NCBI GenBank assembly: GCA_036702865.1
Contig: DATNQD010000059.1
Location: 372,001 to 436,000, forward strand
Length of the DNA: 64,000 bases
Direction: 5' to 3'
From: Trichocoleus sp.
GTDB lineage: Bacteria > Cyanobacteriota > Cyanobacteriia > Elainellales > Elainellaceae
Below are positions 2,055 to 7,178 of the stretch, piece after piece. The number at the start of each line of letters is the position of its first letter. Position 1 is the stretch's first letter. A program made the position numbers and the translations under genes. The notes under the pieces were generated by a model, which worked only from the letters and a program-made list of their open reading frames with translations, did not search any database and was not told the DNA's origin.

Positions 2055-2426
2055 ATGAGCAACCCAATGGAGCAAGCCACACGCAAGACCCAGGATGGTA
2101 AAACCGTAATCGTTCTAACGCCCACAGGACGCTTAGATATTACAACAGCATGGCAGTTTCGCCTAAAGCTGCAAGAGTGTATTGCGAAAACCAGCCCTCA
2201 TGTCATTGTGAATTTGGGGCAGGTGCATTTTATTGATAGCTCTGGGCTGACGTCTCTAGTTGCCGGAATGCGAGATGCGGATAAGGTAAAGGGCAGCTTT
2301 CGGATTTGTAGCGTCCATCCTGAGGCAAAGCTCGTTTTTGAAGTGACTATGATGGACTCTGTATTTGAAATTTTTGATACAGAGGAAGAAGCTTTGGGCG
2401 GCATTCCCCGCAGCATTGCAACTTAG
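2055..2426 (+). CDS. STAS-domain protein (anti-sigma-factor antagonist type)
   Basis: This 123-residue protein is essentially one STAS domain. It has the strand-turn pattern VIVLTPTGRLDITTAWQF, then the conserved phospho-acceptor loop VNLGQVHFIDSSGLTSL with Ser at the position phosphorylated in SpoIIAA/RsbV-type antagonists. Such proteins bind a partner anti-sigma kinase and are switched by Ser phosphorylation; no kinase or phosphatase partner is encoded nearby. The start at 2055 follows AGGGGAAG, a good ribosome site; a second in-frame ATG lies four codons later. A hairpin-plus-T-run terminator follows at 2484-2503. The function of this particular copy is unknown. Confidence 0.88.
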   Translation: MSNPMEQATRKTQDGKTVIVLTPTGRLDITTAWQFRLKLQECIAKTSPHVIVNLGQVHFIDSSGLTSLVAGMRDADKVKGSFRICSVHPEAKLVFEVTMMDSVFEIFDTEEEALGGIPRSIAT

Positions 2427-2483
2427 CTACATCTATTGGGAAAATTGATTGTGCAAATCAGTTTTTAGGCAAATCGTTCTTGG

Positions 2484-2503
2484 GGAGGCAGAGCCTCCTT
2501 TTT
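2484..2503 (+). terminator. Rho-independent terminator after the STAS gene
   Basis: Perfect 6-bp stem GGAGGC/GCCTCC with an AGA loop, followed by five T residues. It lies 57 bp after the STAS stop codon and in the right orientation. It also separates this unit from convergent psbN. Confidence 0.85.
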
Positions 2504-2542
2504 GCACTGCATAAAAGCTGGAAAGCAATTACTGTATGTATC

Positions 2543-2674
2543 CTAGTCCTCATGGTCTTCGAACGGATCGCTCAGCCCCTTCGATGGAGGACCAAATGAG
2601 GTGTAAATTGCTAGCCCAGTAATACCAACCAGGAATACAGCAATTGTTATGCTAAGAACTGTTGCAGGTTCCAT
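2543..2674 (-). CDS. psbN: Photosystem II assembly protein PsbN
   Basis: A 43-residue ORF starting [20 protein letters not shown] and ending in [11 protein letters not shown], the recognisable PsbN pattern: one N-terminal membrane segment (about residues 5-24), a Gly-Pro-Pro turn, then an acidic tail. PsbN is not a stable PSII subunit; it helps early reaction-centre assembly. It is divergent from psbH with only 80 bp between the two starts, the arrangement common in cyanobacteria, although in plastids psbN lies antisense between psbT and psbH. Stop is TAG at 2543-2545. Very secure despite its size. Confidence 0.95.
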
Positions 2675-2704
2675 ATTTGCAGGGGTCATCAATAGTATTA
2701 TCCT

Positions 2705-2710
2705 TATAAT
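2705..2710 (+). promoter_or_regulatory. Likely -10 box of psbH
   Basis: A perfect TATAAT lies 45 bp upstream of the psbH ATG. No well-spaced -35 box is visible (a TTGCAG sits 22 bp upstream, too far). The motif TTACGGATCGTTAAAAT directly follows at 2712-2728 and has a near copy at 1922-1938 upstream of the STAS gene. Confidence 0.45.
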
Positions 2711-2754
2711 ATTACGGATCGTTAAAATCTTAGAAAACTAAGCAAGGGTCACTC

Positions 2755-2958
2755 ATGGCACAGCGGACTCGGTTGGGAGATATTCTGAAACCCCTAAATT
2801 CTGAATACGGTAAAGTTGCTCCGGGCTGGGGAACGACCTCCCTCATGGCAGTTTTTATGGGGCTGTTCTTCGTCTTCCTGCTCATCATCCTTCAGATCTA
2901 CAACTCCTCCTTGATTCTGGAAGGCGTTAACGTAGACTGGTCAAGCCTGGGTAGCTAA
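2755..2958 (+). CDS. psbH: Photosystem II 10 kDa phosphoprotein-family subunit PsbH
   Basis: PsbH is a single-pass PSII core subunit that stabilises the QB side of the acceptor region. The 67-residue protein has the expected stroma-side N-terminus ([22 protein letters not shown]), one membrane helix (about residues 28-48) and the lumenal tail ending NVDWSSLGS. As in other cyanobacteria, it lacks the plant N-terminal phosphorylated extension. It is divergent from psbN and followed by a strong terminator at 2991-3014, so it is probably a monocistronic transcript. Confidence 0.97.
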
Positions 2959-2990
2959 CTAATCGGCTGATTCCAAGCTTCTTTGAAATG

Positions 2991-3014
2991 TCCCCGGCAT
3001 GTCCGGGGATTTTT
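2991..3014 (+). terminator. Rho-independent terminator of psbH
   Basis: Stem CCCCGG/CCGGGG with a CATGT loop, followed by ATTTTT. It lies 33 bp after the psbH stop codon. Confidence 0.9.
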
Positions 3015-3175
3015 GCAGCAATTTTCGCATTGGTTTAAACTCAAAGTCTTTCACTCAGAATCTGCACTGAGAATTTGCTCATCTGGATCAGGTAGTGGGA
3101 AACTAAACTGGATCTAGCGAAGCAACCCATTCGCAATAATTCGGCTTGTTGAATTCGATCGCCTCAGGAGGAACC

Positions 3176-3493
3176 ATGAATATTTTCGGTATCGGCTTGC
3201 CCGAAATGACCCTGATTTTGATTGTGGCACTGCTTATTTTTGGTCCAAAAAAGCTGCCGGAAATTGGTCGGAGTTTAGGAAAAGCCATTCGCGGTTTTCA
3301 GGAAGCGTCGAAAGAATTTGAGAATGAGTTTAAGAAGGAAGCAGAGCGAATTGAGAAGACCGTTAGTGAACCCATGAAGGCAACGCTAGAAACGCCTAAA
3401 GCCCTCGCTTCAACCCCGAAAGATTCTGCAATTGTGGATGCAACGCTGGCTGAAACGCCTGAAGCAACTGAACAAGAAGCAGCAAATTCTTAA
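3176..3493 (+). CDS. tatA: Twin-arginine translocase subunit TatA/TatE
   Basis: TatA forms the oligomeric element that moves folded proteins across thylakoid and plasma membranes. The 105-residue protein has the short N-terminal membrane helix (IGLPEMTLILIVALLIF), the FGPKKLPEIGRSLGKAIRGF hinge and amphipathic helix, and then an acidic Thr/Ala/Pro tail. I chose ATG 3176 over an upstream in-frame ATG at 3146 because AGGAGG sits just before it and family members begin at this point. It is followed 38 bp later by pth. The tatC partner is not in the window. Confidence 0.93.
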   Translation: MNIFGIGLPEMTLILIVALLIFGPKKLPEIGRSLGKAIRGFQEASKEFENEFKKEAERIEKTVSEPMKATLETPKALASTPKDSAIVDATLAETPEATEQEAANS

Positions 3494-3531
3494 GCGCAAG
3501 CTAACGCGGTTTCATCAATCTGATACCAACT

Positions 3532-4170
3532 ATGACAGCGACTTCTGCCGCTGAGGTGAAGCCTCAGTTAATTGTGGGTTTGGGCAATCCGGGCACAAAG
3601 TATGACCAGACGCGCCATAACATTGGGTTTGAAGCGATCGATTCGCTGTCTCGCGCCTGGAAAATCTCGCTTTCTGAGAATCGGAAGTTTCAGGGCACTT
3701 TCGGCGAGGGTCTGAGTCGGCAGGGTGAGAAAATTCGCTTGCTCAAACCTCAAACCTTTATGAATCTCTCTGGGCAGTCGATTCGAGCCGTTACAGACTG
3801 GTACAAAATTCCGCCGGAAGCAGTGCTGGTGATCTATGACGATCTGGACTTACCGGTCGGTCGGCTGCGGTTGCGGCAAACTGGCTCGGCAGGCGGACAT
3901 AATGGCATGAAATCGACGATCGCTCATCTCAACAGCCAAAATTTTCCGCGTCTTCGCATTGGCATTGGTAACCCCAAAGCTAACGCAAACCCCGATCGTG
4001 AGGTTGTGTCTCATGTGCTGGGCAGGTTTTCGGCAGCAGAAAATCAGGTAATGCGAGAGGTGCTTGATCTGGTTGTGGCAGCGATCGACCTCAGCATTAA
4101 GGATGGCATTCCTAAGGCAATGAGCCTCTACAACAATCGATCGGTTCCACTGGCATCGAATGCATCTTGA
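3532..4170 (+). CDS. pth: Peptidyl-tRNA hydrolase
   Basis: Pth cleaves the ester bond of peptidyl-tRNAs that drop off the ribosome, recycling tRNA. The catalytic set is visible in this 212-residue protein: His29 in the TRHNIGF motif, Asn78 in TFMNLSG, the Asp103/Asp104 pair in IYDDLDLP and Asn124 in GGHNGMKS. About the first ten residues are an extra tail compared with the shortest family members. It lies 38 bp downstream of tatA in the same direction, so the two may be cotranscribed. Assignment is secure. Confidence 0.96.
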   Translation: MTATSAAEVKPQLIVGLGNPGTKYDQTRHNIGFEAIDSLSRAWKISLSENRKFQGTFGEGLSRQGEKIRLLKPQTFMNLSGQSIRAVTDWYKIPPEAVLVIYDDLDLPVGRLRLRQTGSAGGHNGMKSTIAHLNSQNFPRLRIGIGNPKANANPDREVVSHVLGRFSAAENQVMREVLDLVVAAIDLSIKDGIPKAMSLYNNRSVPLASNAS

Positions 4171-4346: not shown

Positions 4347-5951
4347 CTATTGCGGCAGCCATTCCAATGTGGCTTCTTCTTTTGTATTAGTGCGACGTTC
4401 GGGTGTTTCGCGGTTGAAGGTGAGATGTACCGATCGCGTTTGTTCGCCATCTGCAGCAACTGCCATGATGGGGAAGTCAATGACTCCATCCTGGAAGGAC
4501 ATTTGGAAGCGGAATGTGCCGTCTGGGTTAAGTTGAACTGGACGACCGCCAATGGTTACGGTGGCGTCAGGTTCAGTTGCACCATAAATAATCAGTTCTG
4601 CGTCCGCAACCAGCCAGAATTTGCGTGGACGCATGGGCGACGTTGATATGCCAGCCCCTGACATTCCCATGCCTGATGTGGTGTACATACCGACGCCGGA
4701 TGTCGTGTACATTCCCATGCCTGAAGTGGTGTACATACCAACGCCAGACATGCCAGCAGCGCCTATGCCGACACCAGACATCATGCCAACGCCAGACATA
4801 CCAGCAGCGCCTATACCGACACCGGACATCATGCCAACACCAGACATGCCAGCAGCGCCTATACCGACACCGGACATCATGCCGACGCCAGACATACTAG
4901 CCGCACTCATACCGACACCAGACATCATACCGACGCCAGACATGCCAGCCGCACTCATACCAACACCGGACGTCATGCCGACACCAGACATGCCAGCAGC
5001 GCTCATACCAACACCGGACATGCCAGCGCCCGACATGCCAGTAACGCCTTTACCGACACCAGACATCATACCAACACCTGATTCAGTCGGGGCTGCCCAC
5101 TTGCCTACCCCAGAAGGGAACACATAGGAGCTAATGGTTTCCTCAGGAACCTGATGCACTGACCCGAAGACAGAGCCAGCAACGCGTTGTGCTTCTGCGG
5201 CTTGTGCCATTTCAAAGACACGCTCATAAATCGGACTGGAAAGCGCTGCAATTTGCTTGGCTGGATGGGTGAGTTGCACAAAGGTTTTCCCTGGCAGTTC
5301 TTCTTCCCAGGCAACGGTAATGAACTGATCGTCAACCCAATCGGTTGGGTAGACTGGCGGAATGCGAACAGCGGTTGAACGTGACAGCATTAACCAACGT
5401 CCATCGCTGGTAACGTAGCCGATTTCAATCATGTAGTCTCGATCGCTAACGGGAATGGGCAAGTACCACTCGCGCGCCAGTTCGTCACATTCATACTGCT
5501 GCAAGCTATGAGGACGCTGATACTCGATCGAGATATCGGTGACATCGTAGAAGCGTAACGCGAGACGAATACCGCCCTGCCGCCGAAGCTCCTCTTTGTG
5601 GTCATTGGGGATCTCCCAATAAGCGTAAGCCCACTGCGGATCGCGAGGCATTAGGACAATCTGACTATCGCCATAACCAGAGGGAAGATCTGGCAAACCT
5701 TCATCGACGACTGCTAAGGAAATTCCAGCTCGATCGACCTGTCCAATATCAAATTTTGCTGCTTCCACTTCTTCTTGAGCCTCTAGAGTACGGGATGGGC
5801 TAGGAGCAAATCTTGTACGCTGAATTTCCTGAATTGCGCTCAGAAGCTGGTCTTTTCGCATCCGGCTATAGCGCGAGATGCCAAACTCACTGGCAACCCG
5901 ACGGAGTTGCCGTAAGGTCATTTCATCGAGAGGGGGACGTTCAAGTGACAT
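4347..5951 (-). CDS. DUF4912 protein with SAP/Rho-N-like N-terminus and Gly-Met-Ser tandem repeats
   Basis: This 534-residue protein has four parts. Residues about 8-45 (MTLRQLRRVASEFGISRYSR onward) look like a Rho-N/SAP helical domain. Residues about 90-205 match DUF4912, with the conserved RDPQWAYAYWEIP stretch and a DRDYMIEIGY strand. Residues about 290-425 are a low-complexity repeat built from 16-residue units such as GAAGMSGVGMMSGVGI and three 8-residue MYTTSGxG units. The last 90 residues form a second beta-rich segment (FWLVADAELIIYGATEPDA). No signal peptide is visible. The function of DUF4912 is unknown; the SAP-like part suggests nucleic-acid contact, which is inference. It is divergent from the DUF2993 gene. 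Confidence 0.85.
   Translation of the reverse strand: MSLERPPLDEMTLRQLRRVASEFGISRYSRMRKDQLLSAIQEIQRTRFAPSPSRTLEAQEEVEAAKFDIGQVDRAGISLAVVDEGLPDLPSGYGDSQIVLMPRDPQWAYAYWEIPNDHKEELRRQGGIRLALRFYDVTDISIEYQRPHSLQQYECDELAREWYLPIPVSDRDYMIEIGYVTSDGRWLMLSRSTAVRIPPVYPTDWVDDQFITVAWEEELPGKTFVQLTHPAKQIAALSSPIYERVFEMAQAAEAQRVAGSVFGSVHQVPEETISSYVFPSGVGKWAAPTESGVGMMSGVGKGVTGMSGAGMSGVGMSAAGMSGVGMTSGVGMSAAGMSGVGMMSGVGMSAASMSGVGMMSGVGIGAAGMSGVGMMSGVGIGAAGMSGVGMMSGVGIGAAGMSGVGMYTTSGMGMYTTSGVGMYTTSGMGMSGAGISTSPMRPRKFWLVADAELIIYGATEPDATVTIGGRPVQLNPDGTFRFQMSFQDGVIDFPIMAVAADGEQTRSVHLTFNRETPERRTNTKEEATLEWLPQ
4640..5085 (-). repeat. In-frame 48-bp and 24-bp tandem repeats inside the DUF4912 gene
   Basis: At least five consecutive 48-bp units encode variants of MSAAGMSGVGMMSGVG, with M/I, T/M and G/S exchanges, preceded by shorter degenerate units. 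Three 24-bp units (MYTTSGMG, MYTTSGVG, MYTTSGMG) lie at the C-terminal end. All unit lengths are multiples of three, so the array can grow or shrink without breaking the frame. As a by-product the plus strand stays open as a Pro/Thr/Asp repeat, which I regard as a shadow. Confidence 0.9.
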
Positions 5952-6410: not shown

Positions 6411-7178
6411 ATGAATCGTAAGTATGATGACTCTGATACTCGCCATAGCCGTTTGATCAGTCGAGTCCTATCGCCTGCATTGCGCTTGTGGCTCCGTTCG
6501 CAAGTTGAAGCCGTTTCAGATCTGCAATTTCAGATTGTGGGAGCCGATCGCCAACTCCTATCGGGATACATTCCCAAGGTTTTGATCGCGGCTCGAAATG
6601 CGATTTATCAAGGAATTCACTTAAGCCGGGTTGAGGTAACGGGCGAAGAAATTCGCATCAATTTAGGGCAAATCTTACGCGGAAAACCGCTCCAGCTGTT
6701 AGAAGTTGTTCCAGTCGTCGGAGAAATGGTGCTGCACCAACAAGATCTAACTGCCTCTCTGTCAGCGCCTCTAATGGTCACGGCTTTATCTGATCTCCTC
6801 AATCTGCTGCTTCAACCGAGCATCCGCTCAACCCTACCGCCTGAATGGGGAGCAATTTTAAGTCAGGGTTCAATCAGGCTGAACCAACCTCAAATCCAGT
6901 TGGGGCATCAGCAACTGACGTTGGGCGGCAACTTGATGACAGAAGACGATCGAGCGGTGCCGTTTTTGCTCCGAACGGGGATAACCCTTGCTTCTGGCTC
7001 TCAGATTCGGCTCGACCAACCCGAATTAATTGAGCATCTCCATTCCACTCAAGGAGTACCTCTGCCACAGTTGCAGAACTTTGAAATTGATTTAGGTGCA
7101 GAGGTCAGTCTGCAAGAACTCAGAGTTGAGCCAGACCAAATAATTTGTCGCGGACGAATTAATATTGTTCCTACCTGA
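6411..7178 (+). CDS. DUF2993 (LmeA-like) lipid-binding family protein
   Basis: This 255-residue protein has the cyanobacterial DUF2993 pattern: VSDLQFQIVGADRQLLSGYI near residue 40, the long alternating strand-rich centre (VEVTGEEIRINLGQ), and a C-terminal INIVPT strand. No signal peptide is evident, and the start MNRKYDDSDT is hydrophilic. DUF2993 includes the mycobacterial phospholipid-binding protein LmeA, so lipid binding at a membrane face is a reasonable inference, but the cyanobacterial role is not known to me. It is divergent from the DUF4912 gene, and 119 bp separate it from the following amylase gene. Confidence 0.8.
   Translation: MNRKYDDSDTRHSRLISRVLSPALRLWLRSQVEAVSDLQFQIVGADRQLLSGYIPKVLIAARNAIYQGIHLSRVEVTGEEIRINLGQILRGKPLQLLEVVPVVGEMVLHQQDLTASLSAPLMVTALSDLLNLLLQPSIRSTLPPEWGAILSQGSIRLNQPQIQLGHQQLTLGGNLMTEDDRAVPFLLRTGITLASGSQIRLDQPELIEHLHSTQGVPLPQLQNFEIDLGAEVSLQELRVEPDQIICRGRINIVPT

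Follow-up and report, generated by a model that had tools for sequence, protein, structure and literature searches.

A multiplied SGxG motif in the predicted disordered linker of a widespread Rho_N–DUF4912 protein of Cyanobacteriia

The protein described in this study is encoded in a 64,000-nucleotide stretch of Trichocoleus sp. DNA (hereafter the window), and its linker, which joins DUF4912 to an Ig-like domain at the C-terminus, carries an array of S-G-x-G motifs that recurs, in varying copy number, in nearly all of the relatives compared. Our preferred reading, held at a probability of roughly 0.38, is that the array is an expandable, intrinsically disordered and multivalent sticker linker that may promote weak association; a neutral spacer that slips in length is considered just as probable. 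The former is preferred as the better account of a seed motif that hardly varies, of the constraint on a hydrophobic residue rather than on methionine, and of the purifying pattern seen in the DNA.

Results

Domain organization and predicted structure

The features of the gene and its product are collected in Table 1. An earlier note on this DNA had named a DUF4912 protein, and that assignment holds, with PF16258 reaching 147.7 bits against a curated cut-off of 29.4 over the whole model; missing from the note was the N-terminal Rho_N domain, which scores 40.8 bits against a curated cut-off of 24.9. The note had also placed the repeat between DUF4912 and a C-terminal beta domain, which agrees with the array occupying the linker between DUF4912 and the Ig-like domain.

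Table 1. Features of the Rho_N–DUF4912 gene, in window coordinates.
Feature	Position	Strand	Description or evidence
CDS, 534 aa	4347..5951	minus	Rho_N - DUF4912 - helix - disordered SGxG linker - C-terminal Ig-like domain
Rho_N domain, aa 8-40	5832..5930	minus	Pfam PF07498, E 2.1e-10
DUF4912 domain, aa 93-208	5328..5675	minus	Pfam PF16258, E 2.2e-43; FN3-like beta sandwich (predicted)
Predicted helix, aa 241-259, then conserved AGSxFGSMxQVP segment	5175..5231	minus	AlphaFold2 (low confidence); alignment conservation
Conserved SGxGxW element (SGVGKW, aa 280-285), start of linker array	5097..5114	minus	SGxGxW in 126/130 Rho_N-type linkers
SGxG array of linker, aa 291-435	4647..5081	minus	Repeat sequence; low pLDDT
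48-bp tandem array, period 48/96/144, 7.2 copies	4734..5075	minus	TRF
24-bp tandem array (MYTTSGxG), 3.1 copies	4671..4745	minus	TRF
C-terminal Ig-like domain, aa 441-516	4404..4631	minus	In 151/155 class genomes, E <= 1e-8

The AlphaFold2 models are of single chains, each built with 29–30 sequences. The Rho_N domain is predicted to be helical, with a pLDDT of 70–90 per 10-residue block, and the N-terminus of Rho in PDB entry 3l0o is hit by a profile built from relatives (E 0.0024). DUF4912 is predicted to have a fibronectin type III-like fold (best Z 9.5, rmsd 3.1, 94 residues aligned), which is a statement at the level of the fold only, many FN3 entries being tied. In the list of fold matches to the window model, those of DUF4912 to FN3 are the clearer ones, and the C-terminal and Rho_N parts are barely probed; the C-terminal domain is beta-rich in the models. 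The array has a pLDDT of ∼26–31 and no secondary structure, so that the flexible spacer proposed in the earlier note is borne out as regards disorder. In a short-linker relative the array region likewise has low pLDDT, and the whole model of this relative (mean pLDDT 51.5) gave no Foldseek match at E <= 0.001.

The repeat array

The 48-bp tandem array has 84% matches between copies, and its score of 453 is reached at period 96 (TRF). Translated from the minus strand, the 48-bp and 24-bp arrays together read MSAAGMSGVGMTSGVG, MSAAGMSGVGMMSGVG, MSAASMSGVGMMSGVG and two copies of IGAAGMSGVGMMSGVG, followed by a further IGAAGMSGVG and then by MYTTSGMG, MYTTSGVG and MYTTSGMG. In agreement with the earlier count, there are five full 16-residue units and three of 8 residues; a sixth long unit is incomplete, and additional SGxG copies precede the 48-bp array. 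The 237-aa linker holds 20 SGxG motifs, compared with a mean of 1.6 and a maximum of seven in 2000 shuffles, and the repeat thus exceeds chance and is confirmed as real.

Base differences between pairs of the five full units number 10/4/54 at codon positions 1/2/3, with 54 of the 68 at the third position. Where codons differ, the change is non-synonymous in 20 of 61 pairs (0.33); 1000 runs of random mutation gave a mean of 0.79 and a minimum of 0.56. The peptide is thus retained whilst the DNA drifts. The array of 161 residues is almost uncharged and mildly hydrophobic (three charged residues, mean Kyte-Doolittle hydropathy 0.69). It has both the predicted disorder and the repeated sticker-spacer unit by which phase-separating or elastin-like low-complexity linkers are recognized, and a phase-separating linker, one of the earlier suggestions, is compatible with the sequence.

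Strand and assembly

A second open reading frame of 168 aa, rich in PTPD repeats, overlies the array on the opposite strand (4621-5127, plus). It is hardly credible that this frame is the real gene, or that the array is an assembly artefact, even with a source genome in 90 contigs and a plus-strand frame that stays open across the array. Independent genomes have arrays of this motif too, three of them assembled as single contigs (G002, G007 and G407); the minus frame runs on into DUF4912 on one side and the C-terminal domain on the other, and the plus-strand frame has no Pfam match. Read in its own frame, the plus strand also shows mostly synonymous differences (34/58), so the synonymous count alone cannot pick the strand and separates the two frames poorly; the minus strand was chosen because the flanking domains lie in its frame. 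The repeat on the sense strand probably gives rise to the plus-strand frame incidentally.

Conservation of the SGxG motif

A relative of the window protein was found in all 60 genomes searched, its own included. The C-terminal domain was detected in 151 of the 155 class genomes (E <= 1e-8) and Rho_N, by profile search, in 142 of 145, some of which have further, shorter Rho_N frames; these were separate searches, and their counts alone do not imply co-occurrence in one gene. Linkers were compared in 157 proteins that combine DUF4912 with the C-terminal domain, drawn from 164 loci (L001–L164) of which the other seven DUF4912 proteins lack a C-terminal match. Of the 145 distinct linkers obtained, 130 follow a Rho_N match. 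SGxG is present in 142 of the 145, often in two or three copies and in as many as 66 (L159), the three linkers devoid of it (L154–L156) coming from other classes of the phylum. Part of this set came from a search that had the repeat as its query, and the subset recovered by the family model gives the cleaner figure, with at least one SGxG in 43 of 46 linkers, at least two in 42 and at least six in five. A contig labelled as a Chloroflexaceae MAG (L083) has a typical cyanobacterial version of the gene and may be misbinned.

The conserved unit is S-G-[VAIM]-G followed by a hydrophobic residue, and a typical short-linker sequence reads SGVGMWAVPTxSGLTMSGVGMSGVGFSAS. Copy number follows linker length closely (r 0.97). 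With the motif present in nearly all linkers and the number of copies tracking length, the array seems to have grown by multiplication of an ancestral motif rather than by insertion of a foreign repeat.

The short linkers also bear on a reading in which SGxG serves for docking, either to a separate folded partner or, by beta-strand addition, to the adjacent FN3-like and Ig-like domains, and expansion would raise avidity rather than cause self-association. In its favour, short-linker proteins have one copy at a fixed place (the SGxGxW element) and another just before the C-terminal domain, and paralogs that share the motif also have both flanking domains in common. In the AlphaFold2 models the motif packs against neither domain (array pLDDT <35), though single-chain models from 29–30 sequences are weak evidence either way. 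We regard docking as unlikely; it lies close to the sticker linker, from which only experiment would separate it.

A hydrophobic position rather than methionine

The unusual density of methionine remarked on in the earlier note is evident, the densest 100 residues containing 21 Met compared with at most eight in 35 other hand-picked open reading frames of the window. With 28 Met in its 161 residues, the array could be taken for a Met-rich metal-binding or redox-sensing segment, as was also proposed, but the relatives make this highly improbable. The residue after SGxG (n=1334) is M in 841 cases, F in 125, L in 120, Y in 72, I in 63 and V in 29, so that one of F, L, Y, I or V takes the place in 409. 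In the protein with 66 copies it is Y in 38, L in 21 and M in only three, and in family f2, whose genomes are small, the 11 orthologs read (L145–L153, L162 and L164) never have Met after SGxG. Since Met is exchanged for other hydrophobic residues, it is mostly hydrophobic character that is retained and not the thioether. Methionine does not hold fixed ligand positions as in Met-rich metal-binding segments; the hydrophobic position is what is conserved, and the array contains neither Cys nor His.

Turnover of copy number

The copy number varies between species, as the earlier note had expected: two loci with flanking domains 99.3% identical have 10 and six copies (L043 and L053), and where the cores of two proteins are more than 88% identical the number of SGxG motifs differs in 172 of 459 pairs. 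On a FastTree phylogeny of 130 Rho_N-type cores the label changes 12 times at a threshold of at least 10 copies and 14 times at one of at least six, gains and losses together. Close relatives do not share a fixed, non-repeated linker, 18 of 29 distinct linkers having at least six SGxG (loci L001–L034 from the own and nearest genomes, with the own paralog included). Individual cases of differing copy number may be due to short-read assembly error.

Such turnover is also what a neutral or near-neutral entropic spacer would show, in which a seed of two or three copies slips and selection acts only on solubility, flexibility and reading frame. Disorder, here by prediction, and variation between close relatives both fit this account, and other linker segments have expanded in tandem too, with AGSVQHVPGS-type units in L060 and L074, IGASEKY in L062 and VPGSVQH in the G012 paralog (L196). 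Tandem arrays of at least three copies were found in the flanks of three of 31 loci with at least 10 SGxG copies, six of 24 with 6–9 and two of 44 with fewer than six; combined, this is 9/55 for at least six copies against 2/44 for fewer. Against a neutral spacer stand the retention of the peptide despite synonymous drift, the near-invariance of the seed motif in the sampled linkers, and the result that TRF reported no other array above 2.3 copies in the 64-kb window. The genome G012 also argues against it, having expanded a different segment and SGxG in neither of its paralogs. Taking both sides together, we give the neutral spacer the same probability as the sticker linker.

A membrane-type paralog and the pairing of arrays

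The genome of the window encodes a paralog made up of a PBP-like part, a membrane segment, DUF4912, an SGxG linker with 21 copies and the same C-terminal domain. Membrane-type paralogs at other loci (L002, L056 and others) have one to three DUF4912 domains; the PBP part was named by Pfam (PBP_like_2) in L056 and read by eye in the others. The own genome has two more DUF4912 proteins (L003 and L005). One is PBP-like, has two copies of the DUF4912 domain and lacks an SGxG linker; the other is a short membrane protein with a divergent DUF4912.

SGxG counts of the two types are correlated, with a Spearman coefficient of 0.84 in the first 25 genomes having both and 0.85 in 43. The 18 genomes added to reach 43 comprised 16 picked by hand, with both places listed, and two contig pairs from a repeat-biased scan; six of 49 two-locus genomes (G010, G014, G020, G208, G303 and G310) were excluded, with a domain or Rho_N match missing in the piece of DNA retrieved for each. 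Counted as both arrays long, only the Rho_N-type long, only the paralog long and both short, the 43 genomes divide 20/2/1/20 at a threshold of five copies, 20/0/0/23 at six, 17/0/3/23 at eight and 13/0/7/23 at 10. Independent contrasts gave r 0.67 (p 1e-6) and a rank correlation of 0.54, on a tree built from the same two proteins and covering these 43 genomes, with 13 later ones outside it. The tree contains three independent switches, all concordant, a number at which a sign test cannot reach significance (p 0.25).

Perfect pairing of the two arrays (43/43 genomes) was rejected when 13 further genomes broke it. These are part of 19 with two C-terminal-domain matches, of which G225, G230, G010, G020, G022 and G030 were not added. 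In family f3 (G037, G339 and G353; L303, L305 and L306) the Rho_N-type protein has 11–13 copies and the membrane-type paralog three, this second protein being short and, by eye, without a PBP part. In the six genomes of family f29 (L292, L294, L296, L297, L299 and L301) the PBP-like paralog has lost its linker, of which 5–6 residues are left, and the Rho_N-type protein has three copies; both arrays are short in the remaining four. For all 56 genomes the table reads 20/3/0/33 at a threshold of six copies and 20/5/1/30 at one of five, with a Spearman coefficient of 0.76. Long arrays also occur in G377 (62 copies) and G384 (43), whose genomes have a single C-terminal-domain match, and in G208, G303 and G310 (41–66 copies), where a second DUF4912 frame has 0–1 SGxG and no C-terminal domain in the stretch examined; a paired array is therefore not needed. 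The lengths of the two paralog arrays are correlated and not locked.

Gene conversion as the main cause of co-expansion is weak at best, same-genome paralogs barely sharing units. The share of common 8-mers is 0.100 within genomes against 0.087 between them (525 of 5000 permutations as high); words of six residues are held in common slightly more often within genomes (0.195 against 0.173, 114 of 5000). Under a neutral spacer the correlation would reflect slippage or repair acting across a lineage, or ancestry, and the small number of independent switches and the expansion of one paralog alone in family f3 agree with this. A more ambitious proposal is that, where both arrays are long, Rho_N–DUF4912 and the membrane-anchored PBP–DUF4912 protein would form one assembly through their SGxG arrays, in which an outward-facing ligand sensor brings a partner that binds nucleic acid to the membrane of bacteria without Rho, the arrays being selected to lengthen together; we consider this improbable. 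The sticker linker, in whose favour the correlation of the two arrays counts, is itself weakened by the one-sided expansion in f3, the loss of the linker in f29, the unpaired long arrays and the few switches, by the somewhat greater number of tandem repeats in the flanks of long-array loci, and by the many lineages that do well with two or three copies.

Gene neighborhood

Among 164 clustered loci, the most frequent neighbor is an LmeA-like gene (49 loci), followed by a CesT-like gene (29), an ARC6/Ftn2-like division gene (19), DUF2358 (14), a gene with a NAGPA domain (14) and an ArsA-type ATPase (10), counts in which some genomes appear twice and one representative per cluster was named by Pfam. 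The neighborhood was rejected as a guide to function; no neighbor is universal, and nothing on function is drawn from it. In the window, an LmeA-like gene of a phospholipid-binding family lies upstream and is divergently transcribed (6411-7178), and an ARC6/Ftn2-like gene is found near the DUF4912 gene elsewhere, for example upstream in L062, L088 and L113. Positions 2055-4170 hold what we take, by eye, to be genes for a STAS protein, PsbH, TatA and peptidyl-tRNA hydrolase (Pth). TatA, Pth and PsbH adjoin the gene in one of 80 loci, and the Pth cluster occurs in nine loci of the 164-locus clustering.

Discussion

A proposed route from motif to function

The functional unit would be S-G-[V/A/I/M]-G-hydrophobic, of which most short-linker relatives have two or three copies between the FN3-like DUF4912 and the Ig-like domain. 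Replication slippage or unequal recombination would multiply it, a step seen indirectly in the differences in copy number, and each extra copy would add a weak hydrophobic sticker, separated from the next by Gly and Ser, and so increase valency. The protein might then associate with itself, with the array-bearing membrane-type paralog or with a common partner, conceivably as a condensate, and the Rho_N head, judging from its domain family, may bring nucleic acid into the assembly as cargo.

Rho_N in bacteria without Rho

The Rho model TIGR00767 scored above its cut-off in none of 59 class genomes, against eight of 14 control genomes, and the window protein is not Rho itself, matching the model only over aa 8-46 with 13.3 bits against a cut-off of 509.45. 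Since Rho passed its cut-off in 0/59 genomes while Rho_N was found in 142/145, the protein is a candidate for a nucleic-acid-linked role; from its sequence it can be put forward as a candidate for RNA- or DNA-linked functions and nothing more. A search of the own genome for S1 domains proved irrelevant, and a phage collection gave no match. The Rho_N domain (PF07498) also occurs in plant RHON1. A BLAST search with plant RHON1 is described in a 2026 study as giving weak cyanobacterial hits and no convincing homolog, and around 80% of the transcription units of S. elongatus are reported there not to be ended by canonical mechanisms (PMC13289151). The table of a BMAA proteome study lists a Nostoc 'all2705 Rho termination factor' with a value of 2.17 (PMC8147232).

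The SGxG array is without description in the literature searched. There, DUF4912 occurred only in an expression table for cotton, titles returned for SGVGM included nothing on cyanobacteria, and listings on Met-rich or Gly-rich repeats and condensates held nothing specific. DUF4912 with Rho_N is thus widespread in the class and almost unstudied in that literature, and represents a widespread Rho_N protein in bacteria that are without Rho and where termination in S. elongatus is reported to be largely non-canonical (PMC13289151). The SGxG motif is common to two otherwise different proteins and, with as many as 66 copies among Rho_N-type proteins, offers a natural allelic series in which the effect of valency in a disordered linker of bacteria could be studied.

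Comparison with known systems

The window protein matches the whole Pfam model of the DUF4912 family (PF16258), while the SGxG linker and the C-terminal domain lie outside that model. The C-terminal domain has a weak likeness to domain B of glucodextranase (E 0.098 in the window protein, E <= 0.01 in three of 29 relatives), but it remains below the Pfam cut-off for Glucodextran_B (PF09136, 13 bits against 27) and has no attached enzyme. With the Rho factor, the window protein and all 29 aligned relatives have Rho_N in common, but the Rho ATPase is absent. For the array, the families for comparison are elastin-like GVGVP repeats and FG-type sticker-spacer linkers, which it resembles in its short, Gly-rich pentapeptides with a hydrophobic residue, in being nearly uncharged and in its predicted disorder. 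It differs from elastin-like GVGVP in having Ser in place of Pro, in a hydropathy of 0.69 rather than 1.20, and in being bacterial.
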